Below, one piece after another: positions 16,719 to 22,692 of a DNA stretch of 41,012 nt (positions are counted from its first letter, which is position 1; every line of letters starts with the position of its first letter). The stretch is from NCBI GenBank assembly GCA_017483465.1, contig JAFUWN010000085.1, forward strand, positions 1 to 41,012. The letters run 5' to 3'. This DNA is from Oscillospiraceae bacterium. GTDB taxonomy: Bacteria > Bacillota > Clostridia > Oscillospirales > Ruminococcaceae. Below the pieces are notes generated by a model. The model did no database searches, had not been told where the DNA came from, and saw nothing but the letters and a program-made list of their open reading frames with translations. The position numbers and the translations under genes are program-made.

Positions 16719-18374
16719 TTATTTTGCGTAATCCGCAACCCGACTTTCACGAATCAGATTGACTTTAATCTGACCTGGATATTCCATTTCGTTTTCAATC
16801 TGCTGAGCAATCTGACGGGCAACAAGCACCATTTTTTCATCATTGATGATATCCGGCTGAATCATGACACGGATTTCACGGCCTGCCTGAACTGCATAGC
16901 ATTTTTCAACGCCTTTATAAGACATACAGATTTCTTCCAGTTTTTCAAGCCGCTTGATATAGCTGTCATAATTTTCGCTTCTTGCACCGGGACGAGCCGC
17001 AGAAATGGCATCGGCTGCCTGTACGATACAGGCGATCGCTGTACGGGGTTCGACATCATTATGATGGGCTTCGATGGCATGAAGCACTTCTGCATTTTCA
17101 TGACATTTCCGGCAGACATCCACACCGAGCTGAACATGAGAGCCTTCCATTTCAGAAGTCAGAGCTTTGCCGATATCATGCAGCAGACCGGCACGTTTGG
17201 CAAGACTGACATCCACGCCGAGTTCCGCAGCAAGTACACCGGAAAGCTGAGCGACTTCGATCGAATGTGTCAGAACATTCTGACGATAGCTGGTTCTGAA
17301 TTTCAGGCGGCCTAATAATTTGATCAACTCATGATTCAGGCCGTGAACGTTGGTTTCCAGAACAGCCCGTTCGCCTTCCTGTTTGATTTTATGTTCGACT
17401 TCACGTTTTGCTTTTTCGACCATTTCTTCGATACGGCTCGGATGGATACGGCCGTCAGAGATCAGTCTTTCCAGAGCGATTCTTGCAATTTCCCTGCGCA
17501 CCTGATCGAAGCAGGAAAGTGTAATTGCTTCCGGCGTATCGTCAATAATCAGATCAACACCGGTGAGCGTTTCGAGAGTACGGATATTTCTTCCTTCACG
17601 GCCGATAATTCTGCCTTTCATTTCGTCATTCGGCAGAGCGACAACGGAAACAGCGGCTTCCGAAACCTGATCAGAAGCACATTTTGCGATAGCAAGAGAA
17701 ATATAGCTTCTTGCTTTTTCCTCGCATTCTTCTTTGAGCTGCTGTTCATAAGAAGAAATTTTCACAGCTTTTTCGTGTACCAGATCTTCTTCAAGGGTTT
17801 TGAGCATATATTCTTTTGCCTGTTCACGGGTCAGTTCAGAGATACGCTCCAGAGTAGAAATTTGTTCCTGTCTGATATTTTCAGCTTCTGTCTTGAGATT
17901 TTCGACTTCCTGCATTTTTTCCTGAACAGCCTGTTCTTTCTGTTCTGCTGCATCGATTTTTTTATCAAGAGTTTCTTCTTTCTGATGAATCCGGCGTTCT
18001 TGTTTAGAGATCTCGTTACGCCTGTCACGGATTTCTTTTTCTGCTTCCTGACGGAGTTTATAAATTTCGTCCTTTGCTTCGACCAGAATTTCTTTTTTTC
18101 TGTTTTCGGCTTCTTTATCTGCCTCTTCGAGCTGTAACTTTGCCTGCTGAATCAGCCGTTCTGCTTCAGCGGTCTGTTGTTTTGCAGTCTGCATTTCATC
18201 CTGAGCCGCTTTCTGAGCCGCTTTGAGTGTTGCTTCGTCTTGCTGGCGGCGATGTTCTTCGCCTTTGGCAAAGCCTTCTTTTTCAGCGGACTGCAGTTTT
18301 CCGGAATAGAATTTCCAGACAAAGATGACAGCCGCAATCAGGACGACAATTACTCCGATCAAAAAACCTGTCAT
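16719..18374 (-). CDS. rny: Ribonuclease Y
   Basis: A 551-aa membrane-anchored endonuclease that starts mRNA decay. It has an N-terminal helix (about 2-20), a long Glu/Lys/Gln-rich coiled coil (about 25-195), a KH domain with [15 protein letters not shown], and an HD domain with HSIEVA and LLHDIGKA (the metal-binding His-Asp pair). It ends in the usual VADYAK-type tail. The ATG at 18374 is better spaced from GGGAGGT (8 nt) than the one at 18380. The family is usually about 510-530 aa. Confidence 0.96.
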
Positions 18375-18537
18375 TCGCATTACCTCCCTTAAATTTGTAA
18401 AGTTTGTTTTCGTGATGAAATTGCTGAAACTTCACACAGGCGGTAAATGCCGCTTCCTGTATTTGTTCAATTTTCAAAAAATATAAATAGATATATAAAG
18501 CCGCAAATACGCCTGCATAAGCTTACAGATATAAATT

Positions 18538-18842: not shown

Positions 18843-20117
18843 ATGAACCTGAGAGAATACAGAATCGAAGAATTAAACGCTTTTTATGAAACCTGCAAGA
18901 GTACTTATGCGGACTATCAGTCCCAGAATCTGAAACTGGATATGTCCCGTGGCAAGCCCTCCCCTGCCCAGCTGGATTTGAGTGCAGGACTGCTGGACTG
19001 TCTGAATAATGAAGATCTGAACGGTGAAGCCGGAGATTATAGAAATTACGGTCTTCTGGACGGCATTCCGGAGGCAAAGAGATTATTTGCCCCCATGCTG
19101 AACGTCAAGCCGGAAGAAATTTTTATGTTCGGAAATGCCAGCTTGCAGGCTATGTATCTGACTGTCAGCTATGCCTATACACATGGACTGTTAGGGAATA
19201 CGCCCTGGAAAGATCTGGAGAAAGTAAAATTTTTATGTCCGGTGCCGGGTTATGACAGACATTTCAGAATTACAGAATTTTTCGGCATCGAGATGATTAA
19301 TATTCCGACAGATGAAAACGGCCCTGATATGGATATGATTGAAAAATTAGTATCAGAAGATGACAGTATCAAGGGAATCTGGTGTGTACCGCAGTATTCC
19401 AACCCGTCCGGTGTGGTTTACAGTGATTAGGCAGAAAAGAGATTTTATGCTCAGAAGCATGCCGCAAAGGATTTCCGTATTTTCTGGGATAATGCATACT
19501 GCATTCATCATCTGTGTGATAATCCCAGGATCATTCTGCCGATTCTGGAAGAAGCCAGAAAGAACGGCAACGAGAATATTGTCTATATTTTCGCTTCTAC
19601 TGCAAAAGTAACCTATGCCGGAGCAGGTGTCTCCATGTTAGCGGCTTCTCAGGAAAATCTGAAAGATCTGACAAAAGCCCTGAGTGCATTCACAATCAGT
19701 TTTGATAAGATCAATCAGATGCGTCATGTAAAATTTTTTGACGGCAAATTTGAGAATGTTCTTGCACATATGGAAAAGCAGAGAGCCTTGCTCGAACCGA
19801 AATTCAAGACCGTACTGGATACCCTGAATGCTGAAATCAGACCTTTGGGCATTGGTGAATGGACAGAACCGAAAGGCGGTTATTTCGTATCATTCAACGC
19901 ACCGGCAGGCTGTGCCAAGAGAATTGTACAGCTCTGCAAAGAAGCCGGCGTTGTTCTGACCGGAGCAGGTGCGGCATTCCCCTACGGCAAAGACCCGGAA
20001 GACAGAAATATCAGAATCGCACCTTCTTACCCGTCTGTAGAGGAACTTCAGAAAGCAATGGATTTATTTGTACTCTGTGTAAAAATGGCTGCTGCCGAAA
20101 AACTGCTGAACGCATAA
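18843..20117 (+). pseudogene. PLP-dependent aminotransferase (MocR-like, PF12897 type) with in-frame TAG
   Basis: Read through, this is a 424-codon class I aminotransferase of the group that uses aspartate or other amino acids. It has NYGLLDGIPEAKRLF, GNASLQAMYL, VPGYDRHF, PQYSNPSGVVYSD, DNAY and the PLP-binding Lys255 in FASTAKVTYAGAG. Codon 196 (19428-19430) is TAG, between YSD and AEKRFYAQKHAAKDF, where relatives have a variable polar residue (often Glu). CAG or GAG to TAG is one change. The frame then continues for 228 codons to TAA with every conserved motif intact. Truncation at TAG would remove the catalytic Lys. Confidence 0.82.
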
Positions 20118-20132
20118 AATAGTAATTTACCG

Positions 20133-20171: not shown

Positions 20172-20309
20172 AAAAAACAAAGAATCCTCTGTAAGGGAAC
20201 AGAGGGTTCTTTGCCATGATATAGGGATTATAGGGATTTTTATAATTAACGCTGGAGTTACGTTAATTACTTCTAAAAGGGGGAGAATATTATTCTTATT
20301 TCTAAGAAC
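20172..20309 (-). ncRNA. Putative small RNA, copy B
   Basis: Predicted 138-nt minus-strand transcript. A 5' hairpin (20308-20303 with 20298-20293, GAAA loop) starts within two bases of the predicted +1. A 9-bp middle hairpin follows (20269-20261 with 20251-20243) with a CUCC-containing loop. Next comes an unpaired stretch with two UCCC motifs and UAUAUCAUG, then a 15-bp terminator stem (20213-20178) followed by six Us. There is no credible ORF. The order of elements and the unpaired core match copy A. Target and function are unknown; UCCC motifs in Gram-positive small RNAs often pair with ribosome-binding sites. Confidence 0.65.
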
Positions 20310-20315
20310 AATCAT

Positions 20316-20360
20316 AGTATAACATCCTTTTGTGATAATTATATGAAAACAATATGAAAG
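20316..20360 (-). promoter_or_regulatory. Response-regulator-type promoter of copy B
   Basis: Three direct repeats (CTTTCAT, TTTTCAT, TTATCAC; TCA at 20357, 20346 and 20335) at exact 11-bp steps end 10 nt before TATACT (20321-20316). There is no good -35. This is the layout of PhoB/PhoP-type activated promoters. Confidence 0.6.
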
Positions 20361-20392
20361 TTTTGGATATAATCTTTTATCTGGAATTACAG

Positions 20393-20511
20393 AAAAAACA
20401 CAAAAATCCTCTTCCGAGGACTCTTGTGCATGATATAGGGATTATTGGGGATTTATAATAACGTTGGGGTAAAACGCTATTACCTGAGTAAACAGTCATT
20501 TCTAATGACCA
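20393..20511 (-). ncRNA. Putative small RNA, copy A
   Basis: Predicted 119-nt minus-strand transcript directly after the kinase gene. A 5' hairpin (20509-20504 with 20500-20495, AGA loop) starts at about +3. The middle 9-bp hairpin (20481-20473 with 20465-20457) has a UUACCCC loop. The unpaired core has AUCCCC and AUCCCUAUAUCAUG, and the terminator stem (20428-20399) is followed by six Us. The core and architecture match copy B while stem sequences differ with compensating changes, which argues for conserved RNA structure. No protein is evident. Confidence 0.68.
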
Positions 20512-20517
20512 TAGTTT

Positions 20518-20573
20518 ATTATATCTGCTGTCAATGACAGCAATATGATAATCATGTGATAATTTTGTGAAAA
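20518..20573 (-). promoter_or_regulatory. Response-regulator-type promoter of copy A
   Basis: Four direct repeats (TTTTCAC, TTATCAC, TTATCAT, CTGTCAT; TCA at 20570, 20559, 20548 and 20537) in exact 11-bp steps end 10 nt before TATAAT (20523-20518). The last repeat equals the E. coli Pho-box half-site. The array begins one base after the kinase stop codon. Confidence 0.68.
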
Positions 20574-22004
20574 TCATCTGATTTCAAACCAGAAAACAGA
20601 ACCCTCCCCTAGTTTGGAGCGGACTCCGTAGCCATAATTATGCAGTTTCAGGATTGCCTTGACAATAGAGAGACCCAGGCCGGTTCCGACGACTTCACGC
20701 TTATGATTTTCACTGCGATAATATTTATCAAAAATTTTCTTGATTTTATCTTCTTCAATACCTGCTCCGGTATCACGGACTTCAATTCTGACTCCCTGTT
20801 CTGTATTGATTTGTTTTACAAAGACCTGTTTGTCATCGCCTGTATAGTTAATTGCATTATTGATCAGATTGCAGACAACACGTTCCATTTTACCGGCATC
20901 ACAGGTCACTTCTCTGGATTCATCCGGAGTAAATGACAGATGATAGCCCATCTGTTCGGATACGCCTTTATAGCGTGAGCAGATTTCTGTCATCCAGGCA
21001 GTGACATCAAAAGTAGTCGGTTCGAGTTTCTGACTGCCGTTTTCGAGTTTGGATAAATCCAGAATATCATTGACAAGCATAGTCAGTCTGTCAGTTTCTT
21101 CTATGATCACTTGCAGATGAGCATTTCTCTTGACAGGATTATCACCGGACAGATCACGGATCATTTCGGCATAGGCTTTGAGCATCGTGAGCGGAGTCCG
21201 GAGATCATGCGAAACATTGGCGATCAGATCTCTCTGCATGGTATCGACTTTAGAGATTTCATGTTCTGCATAAGTAAGAGTCTGAGCGAGTTCGTCAACT
21301 TCTTTATAGCCGCCGCCTTTGAATTCTGTATCATACTGCCCGTGAGCCATGCGTTTGGCAGATTCGGTAATCTGGATAATCGGCACAGAAAGGCGGTTTG
21401 CCAGTATCAGAGCGATAATAAAGCCGGCGACCAGTAATAGAATCGCAATCATCAGGAGCAGGCGTTTTAATAACAATACGGTTGTACCGACAGGTTCCAG
21501 AGCCGTATTGAACAGCATATAGCCGTCAGGGTTCTGCACATCTCCGATCACGCTGCCGAGAACGAGGGTTTTCATATTGATCTGTTCATCAAAGACATTC
21601 ATGCAGATTGTACCGGTTTCACTGTTCTTGACTTCCTGCTGAATCTGGAATAAATAATTATGCCATCCGTGAAGAAGACAGCGGTTGCCCATGACATCGC
21701 TTTGATAGAGCACATAATTTCTGCTGTCGATAACAGAAATACAGATCTGATTGCTGAACGAAACCGATCGCATAGTTTCTTCAAATTCATCTGTATCATA
21801 GGCTTTAATCAGTTCGCTTGCGATATTTTTAGTTTCCTGAATTTTGAAATAATAATAAAATTTTTCCAGGAAAGCGACTTCAATCAGGAGAAGTCCGGAA
21901 GCAATGACAGTAAAGATAATAAAAGCCATTGCAAGGAGTGTATGCAGAGAAAGACGGCTTTTCTCTTTTTGGGCTTTAATTTTTGTTTTTTTCTTATTCA
22001 GCAT
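20574..22004 (-). CDS. Sensor histidine kinase
   Basis: A 476-aa membrane kinase. It has a first helix (about 25-48), an extracytoplasmic sensor region (about 50-180), a second helix (about 185-210), HAMP, HisKA with the phospho-His in ANVSHDLRTPL, and HATPase with NLINNAINY, DTGAGI and GTGLGLSIVKA. It lacks a PAS domain, unlike typical PhoR. The frame opens further upstream, but the ATG at 22004 begins MLNKKKTKIK before the first helix and overlaps the response-regulator gene by 11 nt. Its signal is unknown. Confidence 0.93.
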   Translation of the reverse strand: MLNKKKTKIKAQKEKSRLSLHTLLAMAFIIFTVIASGLLLIEVAFLEKFYYYFKIQETKNIASELIKAYDTDEFEETMRSVSFSNQICISVIDSRNYVLYQSDVMGNRCLLHGWHNYLFQIQQEVKNSETGTICMNVFDEQINMKTLVLGSVIGDVQNPDGYMLFNTALEPVGTTVLLLKRLLLMIAILLLVAGFIIALILANRLSVPIIQITESAKRMAHGQYDTEFKGGGYKEVDELAQTLTYAEHEISKVDTMQRDLIANVSHDLRTPLTMLKAYAEMIRDLSGDNPVKRNAHLQVIIEETDRLTMLVNDILDLSKLENGSQKLEPTTFDVTAWMTEICSRYKGVSEQMGYHLSFTPDESREVTCDAGKMERVVCNLINNAINYTGDDKQVFVKQINTEQGVRIEVRDTGAGIEEDKIKKIFDKYYRSENHKREVVGTGLGLSIVKAILKLHNYGYGVRSKLGEGSVFWFEIR

Positions 22005-22692
22005 TAGAATCAAATTTATAGCCCATGCCCCGGAGAGTGACAATAAACTTGCGATACTCACCGAGGCTGTTTCTCAGCATTTTAATATGTGTATCGACTG
22101 TTCTGTCATCACCGAAGAAATCATAGCCCCAGACGGATTCCAGAAGCTTGTCACGGGTGAGGGCAAGGCCTTTGTTTCTGACTAAATAAAATAACAAATC
22201 ATATTCTTTGGGAGTCATAGAAGCCTTTTTGCCGTCAACATAGACTTCTCTGCCGGCCATGTCAATTTCGAGACCTTCAAAGACGAGAGTTTCCCGTTTG
22301 GATTCTTTCGGCTCTGTAGTCTGAACAGAATTTTTACTTCTCATAAGAACGGCTTTGACACGGGCCATTAATTCTTTCGGAGAGAACGGCTTGACAACAT
22401 AGTCATCCACGCCGATTTCAAAGCCGAATAATTTATCATATTCCTCGCCCCTTGCAGAGAGCATAATAATAGGAACATTTTTATGTTTCTTGATTTCCTT
22501 GCTGGCAGAATAGCCGTCTAACTTCGGCATCATAACGTCCATAATAATCAGGTCATAATGATTTTTCTTGCATTTTTCGACGGCTTCCATACCGTTTTCA
22601 GCCTCATCAACGTCATATTCTTCAAATTCAGCGTATTCTCTGACGACGGCCCTGATATTGACCTCATCATCAACGATTAATAACTTGCTCAT
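21994..22692 (-). CDS. OmpR/PhoB-family response regulator
   Basis: A 232-aa regulator with a receiver domain (acidic pair VDDE, phospho-Asp52 in LIIMDVMMP, Lys in VVKPFSPKEL) and a C-terminal winged helix (LTRDKLLESVWGYD, DDRTVDTHIKMLRNSL, TLRGMGYKF). Members of this family bind direct repeats with 10-11-bp spacing. That makes it the prime candidate for the arrays at 20332-20360 and 20534-20573. The ATG at 22692 (MSKLLIVDDE) is chosen although the frame opens earlier. Confidence 0.94.
   Translation of the reverse strand: MSKLLIVDDEVNIRAVVREYAEFEEYDVDEAENGMEAVEKCKKNHYDLIIMDVMMPKLDGYSASKEIKKHKNVPIIMLSARGEEYDKLFGFEIGVDDYVVKPFSPKELMARVKAVLMRSKNSVQTTEPKESKRETLVFEGLEIDMAGREVYVDGKKASMTPKEYDLLFYLVRNKGLALTRDKLLESVWGYDFFGDDRTVDTHIKMLRNSLGEYRKFIVTLRGMGYKFDSNAE

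Follow-up and report, generated by a model that had tools for sequence, protein, structure and literature searches.

Two conserved small-RNA genes behind an OmpR/PhoB-type two-component system in an Oscillospiraceae bacterium

Two small-RNA genes in tandem behind a two-component system

On the minus strand of the window (the whole stretch of 41,012 nucleotides that was analysed), an OmpR/PhoB-type two-component system is followed by two small-RNA genes, referred to here as copies A and B. Comparison with relatives shows A and B to be conserved as structured RNA genes, and shows that their promoter ladders and their association with this regulator are conserved as well. As far as can be judged from sequence comparison, the two-component system probably has two paralogous trans-acting sRNAs as its main strict-box output in this genome; they would be activated through the repeat ladders and pair with mRNAs through C-rich segments.

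In the proposed mechanism, the kinase would sense a signal and phosphorylate the response regulator, which would then bind the 11-bp TCA repeats standing in for a -35 box. Binding would switch on both RNA genes, whose transcripts would end at separate terminators. Acting post-transcriptionally, the RNAs would use their ACCCC/ACUCC loops, the UCCCC/UCCC core and, in B, the C5 stretch; base-pairing close to the ribosome-binding sites of particular mRNAs is the most likely mode. Activation rather than repression is suggested by the position of the boxes next to the -10 box, and action in trans by each unit ending at its own terminator with the next gene being convergent; the signal, the pairing mechanism and the targets are likewise what we infer. 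The order on the minus strand is response regulator, histidine kinase, RNA gene A, RNA gene B and a convergent aminotransferase gene, with the following features:

21994..22692, minus strand: response regulator gene, OmpR/PhoB type (receiver plus winged helix), about 232 amino acids; Pfam Response_reg 1.1e-31, Trans_reg_C 8.4e-25
20574..22061, minus strand: sensor histidine kinase gene, 495 amino acids; Pfam HisKA 3.7e-19, HATPase_c 3.6e-23
about 20573-20391, minus strand: copy A overall
20534..20573, minus strand: copy A repeat ladder, four TCA units in 11-bp steps; TCA spacing kept in relatives
20518..20523, minus strand: copy A -10 box TATAAT, 14 bases past the last TCA
20391..20511, minus strand: sRNA A (predicted transcript start); fold z -4.9, model match 70.7 bits, relatives
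20494-20510, minus strand: sRNA A 5' hairpin
20455-20483, minus strand: sRNA A ACCCC-loop hairpin
20430-20454, minus strand: sRNA A unpaired core
20398-20429, minus strand: sRNA A terminator hairpin, with U tract
about 20378-20172, minus strand: copy B overall
20332..20360, minus strand: copy B repeat ladder, three TCA units in 11-bp steps
20316..20321, minus strand: copy B -10 box TATACT, 14 bases past the last TCA
20174..20312, minus strand: sRNA B (predicted transcript start); fold z -7.5, model match 68.9 bits
20289-20312, minus strand: sRNA B 5' hairpin
20275-20288, minus strand: sRNA B C5 stretch
20242-20270, minus strand: sRNA B C-loop hairpin
20216-20240, minus strand: sRNA B unpaired core
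20176-20215, minus strand: sRNA B terminator hairpin, with U tract

Promoters and RNA structure

An earlier note on this DNA had described ladders, -10 boxes, hairpins and terminators in both copies, and this two-copy observation is confirmed. The TCA units of copy A (TTTTCACA, TTATCACA, TTATCATA and CTGTCATT) begin directly behind the kinase stop codon. The direct repeats are indeed four in A and three in B, and the distance from the last repeat to the -10 box is, as had been claimed, equal in the two. Across the 2.91-Mb genome, a strict three-box pattern is matched three times, each time within the A or B promoter, against 0 control matches. Such 11-bp TCA repeats are similar to the Pho box. 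A naming of the regulator as PhoB was dropped, since none of the 25 best NCBIfam models for the regulator and the kinase reaches its own cut-off.

The fold energy is -35.1 kcal/mol for A and -38.5 kcal/mol for B (z-scores of -4.9 and -7.5), and for each copy 0 of 200 shuffled sequences are equally stable. The folds bear out a 5' hairpin from about +2, an unpaired core (AAAUCCCCAAUAAUCCCUAUAUCAU in A and AAAAUCCCUAUAAUCCCUAUAUCAU in B) and a U-tract terminator in both copies. The middle hairpin with a C-rich loop stood up as well; its stem, given earlier as 9 bp, folds as 11 bp. Additional support for the 5' hairpin comes from 131 sequences, 93% of which fold better over their first 40 bases than their own shuffled mean. 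Own promoter, own terminator and conserved structure, the marks of a two-component-controlled trans-acting sRNA, are found by sequence and comparison.

Conservation as RNA genes

A DNA search of 38 genomes of the window's genus, own genome included, gives matches in 31, and A and B are distinguishable, separate types in the loci read. Scanning GTDB species genomes with an exact 20-base core pattern yields at least 117 stretches; among the matches listed (80 titles), 62 are labelled Ruminococcus, including isolate records of R. flavefaciens and R. callidus. Members of Ruminococcus are widespread in gut and rumen, and cellulose degraders are among them. The core is nearly invariant while the stems vary freely; in loci found with the pattern this invariance is partly by construction, the pattern itself fixing the core, and the pattern-free DNA search of the genus genomes arrived at the same core. 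The ACCCC loop is missing in 6 of 117 type-A sequences, and the spacing between stem and core shifts by single bases among relatives.

An alignment of 28 type-A sequences (A3), hand-picked among 77 representatives for an ungapped loop, has 95.4% of its cells paired and two-sided changes in 22 of 25 pairs. None of 500 shuffles scores as high on any of five measures, and slid versions are only 36-46% paired. A wider alignment (A2) holds 68 of the 77 representatives, the nine omitted including the six without the ACCCC loop, and another (A4) was made from 50 chosen loci and fitted to the model. A 62-sequence alignment that also takes in B types and other genera is 96.5% paired. It was, however, fitted to the model, and on one measure of the five, the number of pairs with two-sided change, 118 of 500 shuffles reach the observed value. 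Covariation, the recovery in 31 of 38 genus genomes and covariance-model matches across genera (below) together uphold the claim of two homologous sRNA genes behind a two-component system.

Two other readings of the conserved segment were weighed against an RNA gene, and both appear most improbable. A small peptide gene might be suspected from an ATG-started frame running through the core in copy A. Only 49 of 131 sequences, though, have an ATG, GTG or TTG start from which reading stays open across the core, and two different frames are involved; peptide coding was rejected on this count, and the covarying stems and the single-base changes in stem-to-core spacing argue against it too. Alternatively, since both units end in terminators behind the kinase gene, the structures could be two intrinsic terminators of the kinase operon accompanied by chance hairpins. 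The separate promoters, the conserved core, middle hairpins that covary across genera and the RNA copies located away from the kinase make this scarcely credible.

Taxonomic range and variants

In the family, a first covariance model matched 17 of 197 genomes; in the order it matched 2 of 295, namely the own genome and another from the same family. With a second model, the search of relatives that had been proposed for these RNAs gave matches in 50 of 396 family genomes and 14 of 126 genera. Strong matches (E 1.5e-8 or better) come from 46 family genomes in 11 genera, a count from which four weak family matches (E 4.5e-5 to 8.4e-4) were kept out; two of these four are without a match to the kinase sensor. 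Together with the 22 of 25 pairs carrying two-sided changes, these 46 genomes answer positively whether the structure is conserved in related genomes, a test named beforehand. At the class level, 5 of 391 genomes matched, namely the own genome and four weak matches outside the family. Searches over 40 genomes were run with strict filters, which can miss weak members.

Two of the four weak class-level matches (L252 and L254) lie in one genus of another family. Both have TCTCTATATCAT before the terminator and share TATCTCTATATCAT, followed by the terminator. This element is possibly a distant relative of the A/B RNA and was not counted in the range.

Within the family, a variant RNA occurs in two genera. 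It carries AACCCCCAAUAAUCCUAUAUCAU and, in the case read most closely, three UUACCCC loops. Further relatives came from reading 40 kinase-downstream regions, which were chosen from sensor-region matches with several genomes per genus; 39 are from genomes without a model match and one (G207) from a genome with a weak one. Six divergent relatives in four genera were recognised in this way, three of them in one genus and all with C4 stretches. In four of them CCAUAUCAUAA precedes the terminator; another has AUAUCAU ahead of its C-run, and the last has UAUAUCG. Without filters, four of the six score 32.5, 29.9, 24.0 and 21.7 bits; the L283 region, which was not counted as a relative, also reaches 21.7 bits without filters.

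Link to the neighbouring regulator

For linkage, 97 of the 117 pattern loci were used, after dropping identical, edge-cut and N-bearing sequences and one chance match (L113). In 84 of the 97 loci the kinase gene is found on the same strand no more than 2.5 kb upstream, and in 78 the distance is within 500 bases. Among the 13 loci without a nearby kinase, three have less than 500 bases of upstream sequence and ten have at least 1.3 kb. Of the kinase matches, 88 have a readable start, and 85 of these have the regulator just upstream.

The repeat spacing is kept in relatives. The 114 type-A upstream regions include many close relatives and are not all independent. They hold 158 TCA pairs at a spacing of 11, 87 at 22 and 40 at 33, compared with at most 18 at any spacing that is not a multiple of 11. 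Of these 114 regions, 49 have ladders of at least three rungs, compared with 4 of 2280 shuffled ones; for type B the figures are 11 of 15 regions and 0 of 300 shuffled. Copies whose RNA is not behind the kinase carry ladders of at least three TCA/ACA rungs in 8 of 10 cases for A, 6 of 7 for B and 4 of 6 for the variant, with a shuffle rate of about 1% for this rule; in kinase-linked A loci the same [TA]CA rule with at least three rungs holds in only 32 of 87.

The kinase sensor region is matched in 46 of the 46 strong-RNA genomes versus 196 of the 396 family genomes overall (Fisher p about 4e-16, with genomes treated as independent of phylogeny). The RNA has no strong match in 150 of the 196 genomes with a sensor match, a number that includes some missed by the strict filters. 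In the 40 kinase-downstream regions, a ladder plus -10 box occurs within 500 bases in 6 of the 6 with a divergent RNA versus 2 of the 34 without. These two are L329, where it stands before another gene, and L339, with two rungs far downstream. A ladder upstream of the regulator's own gene is seen in 30 of 71 loci, none recognisably of the window's genus, against 0.6 expected; -10-like hexamers were counted 17 times at 14 bases past the last rung and 22 times at 22 bases. In the window and the seven closest relatives inspected, the regulator promoter has at most two rungs. The ladder at the regulator's own promoter is a feature of other genera and not of the window or these relatives.

Taken together, control of A and B by the neighbouring OmpR/PhoB regulator is well supported, and we infer it from this comparative evidence. 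The boxes of OmpR-family regulators resemble one another, and another member of the family might therefore drive A and B, with the neighbouring system linked by synteny only. The RNA copies away from the kinase and the ladder-less regulator promoter of the window would be in line with that. Against it, the promoter of the neighbouring regulator carries a ladder in 30 of 71 loci, every one of the 46 strong-RNA genomes has the sensor match, and 32 of 34 RNA-less kinase-downstream regions (exceptions L329 and L339) have no ladder plus -10 box. We regard a different regulator as quite improbable.

The earlier description of a self-contained regulator and sRNA circuit holds in part: the link to the regulator stands, with 84 of 97 loci linked, and the arrangement is not always self-contained, as shown by displaced B copies and ten A loci. 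B-type copies are displaced in seven genomes of the same genus, three of which have A and B on one contig, 6.6 to 10 kb apart. Of the displaced B RNAs at L220, L221, L224 and L226, three lie between an aminotransferase gene and a SpoVAD-like gene; at L226 the RNA is beside the SpoVAD-like gene, with no aminotransferase in view. Those at L223 and L225 are near a SpoIIIAA-like gene. The names of these neighbours (aminotransferase, SpoVAD-like and SpoIIIAA-like) are our presumed assignments.

Some ladders precede other genes. At L329, which is from another genus, a TCA/TCA/ACA ladder with GAAAAT at the usual offset lies about 215 bases past the kinase stop codon, and an apparent protein gene comes next. 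On the reverse strand of L288, in one other genus, a weaker ladder right behind the kinase precedes a PPIC/SurA-type foldase gene, with no RNA; this ladder was seen by eye and fails the final ladder rule. The arrangement gives a faint hint that the system may respond to envelope or secretion stress.

Possible regulon beyond the RNA pair

In the 38 genus genomes, the strict triple box occurs 33 times, spread over 16 genomes; 24 of these sites are at RNA promoters and the other 9 are not (eight of these nine were inspected), with 0 in the control. In the window's genome, the confinement of the strict triple box to the two RNA promoters offers a clean case for asking why a two-component system would act mainly through sRNAs. 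A looser pattern of two boxes and a -10 box, allowing two mismatches, gives 39 sites, ten of which were looked at, versus 10 in the control; because this exceeds the control, additional weaker targets of the regulator are possible.

One site, before a gene for a membrane protein that we took for foldase-like, was set aside: among 30 orthologue loci of the same genus it recurs in only 3, counting the own locus (L297, L301 and L305). Three more loci have pattern matches elsewhere, and the other readable orthologue upstream regions have an ordinary TTG..TATAAT promoter. The first 345 residues of the protein have no Pfam match. The box at this gene may be lineage-specific. Feedback of the RNA on the regulator mRNA was also considered and rejected, the regulator leader not being conserved.

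Targets and mode of action

The C-rich loops and the highly conserved unpaired core suggest pairing with mRNAs, by analogy with csRNA or LhrC. The earlier note had proposed predicting targets from the UCCC core; a long-complement search, a duplex test and inspection of the top matches brought no convincing target. Apart from the two genes themselves, no place in the genome matches the complement of the A core at 17 of 20 bases. The duplex test set segments of A and B against 310 genes, crudely predicted in about 441 kb of genome sequence; shuffled segments and coding windows served as controls. Complementarity to the 310 predicted ribosome sites was not above that of shuffled segments. The UCCC core as a general anti-Shine-Dalgarno sequence is therefore not borne out at these 310 sites, and anti-Shine-Dalgarno pairing would need fewer bases than the conserved core has.

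Among the segments, the C5 stretch of B favours ribosome sites most, with 67 versus 35 in coding windows; its shuffles average 52.9 versus 35.7, and 11 of 40 reach the count. A search with this stretch gives 29 sites, one being B itself, versus 16 in the control. Fifteen of the 29 were inspected, and five have a start codon within the next 16 bases. One of the five, the ribosome site of an SBP_bac_5 lipoprotein gene, pairs with the C5 stretch at -19.4 kcal/mol and is a weak candidate. The strongest core match (L270) was dropped as an internal gene site, lying within what we take to be queA.

So highly conserved a core would suit a protein site as well as a single fixed RNA partner, and this keeps protein binding in play. 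Under that alternative, regulation would be as described and the RNAs would bind a protein as decoy or co-factor, with the ACCCC loops and the core as docking sites. It would account for a core that hardly varies while the stems vary freely (the core being fixed by the search in pattern-found loci), for the lack of excess complementarity to ribosome sites and for the recurrence of C4 loops, which number up to three per RNA in one variant and also appear in some terminator loops. Yet it comes without a candidate protein, and the C-rich unpaired motifs of other low-GC Gram-positive sRNAs work by pairing, according to the available part of PMC4132741; we consider it unlikely. Equally tentative is a broader version, in which the regulator would mainly switch a dedicated RNA. 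Its core, present in both paralogues and kept across genera, would bind a single fixed partner (either a protein or a conserved RNA) instead of many ribosome sites, so that the strict-box output would be almost wholly post-transcriptional. Should this doubtful version be true, it would be an RNA class for which we know of no counterpart. Pairing with particular mRNAs is still the reading that we favour.

Comparison with known systems

Functionally, csRNAs and LhrC come closest to A and B, which by the features tested belong to neither. As the earlier note had stated, the RNAs match no named family: the window contains no Rfam family at gathering thresholds, and a permissive search gave four matches, all below gathering scores, all on the plus strand and none credible. 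LhrC is in Rfam. The window is without an Rfam family match, and A and B differ from LhrC also in core sequence and host. The likeness to LhrC1-5 of Listeria (the LisRK regulon) lies in several C-rich unpaired sites, as described for LhrC in the accessible text of PMC4132741. According to works cited in the same text, the C-rich motifs of RsaE, FsrA and other UCCC-bearing low-GC Gram-positive sRNAs are said to bind targets; A and B share such motifs with RsaE and FsrA, but have no Rfam match and were negative in the ribosome-site pairing test.

The streptococcal csRNAs are driven by CiaRH through direct repeats TTTAAG-N5-TTTAAG with an 11-bp period, and the unpaired region between their stem-loops is conserved, as far as the available part of PMC3091779 goes. 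Copies A and B are alike in being related sRNAs, several per system, with a two-component regulator, an 11-bp repeat period and a conserved unpaired region between stem-loops. In contrast, their repeats are TCA-centred (e.g., TTATCACA), and their host belongs to the Ruminococcaceae, whereas CiaRH is reported only in streptococci in the text available from PMC8186281. Unlike the csRNAs, in which an anti-AUG CAU comes before the anti-SD sequence, the A/B core has its CAU 3' of CCC, as judged by reading, an order that does not suit joint pairing with the SD and the following AUG of a target; copy A, moreover, directly follows its kinase gene.

In the openly licensed papers searched, no title or abstract reports an RNA of the A/B type, and none names a Ruminococcus regulatory sRNA. 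As far as these searches go, A and B form a new RNA family of a known functional kind. Its unusual traits are the kinase-linked RNA gene, the highly conserved core and a strict regulon that in this genome equals the RNA pair. With a conserved RNA family, a candidate regulator, a defined DNA box and a conserved core at hand, signal, regulator-box contact and targets are each directly testable.

Neighbouring genes

The convergent aspartate aminotransferase gene (window 18843-20120, plus strand; Pfam Asp_aminotransf on the first piece) has a single in-frame stop codon at about 19428-19430, where the relatives L009 and L010 have none. The interrupted gene could be a pseudogene or reflect an assembly error. 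The second gene past the sRNA pair encodes RNase Y (RNase_Y_N, KH and HD; window 16719-18380, minus strand). At L222, a B-type RNA is also found near an aminotransferase gene and a frame that we take to be RNase-Y-like.
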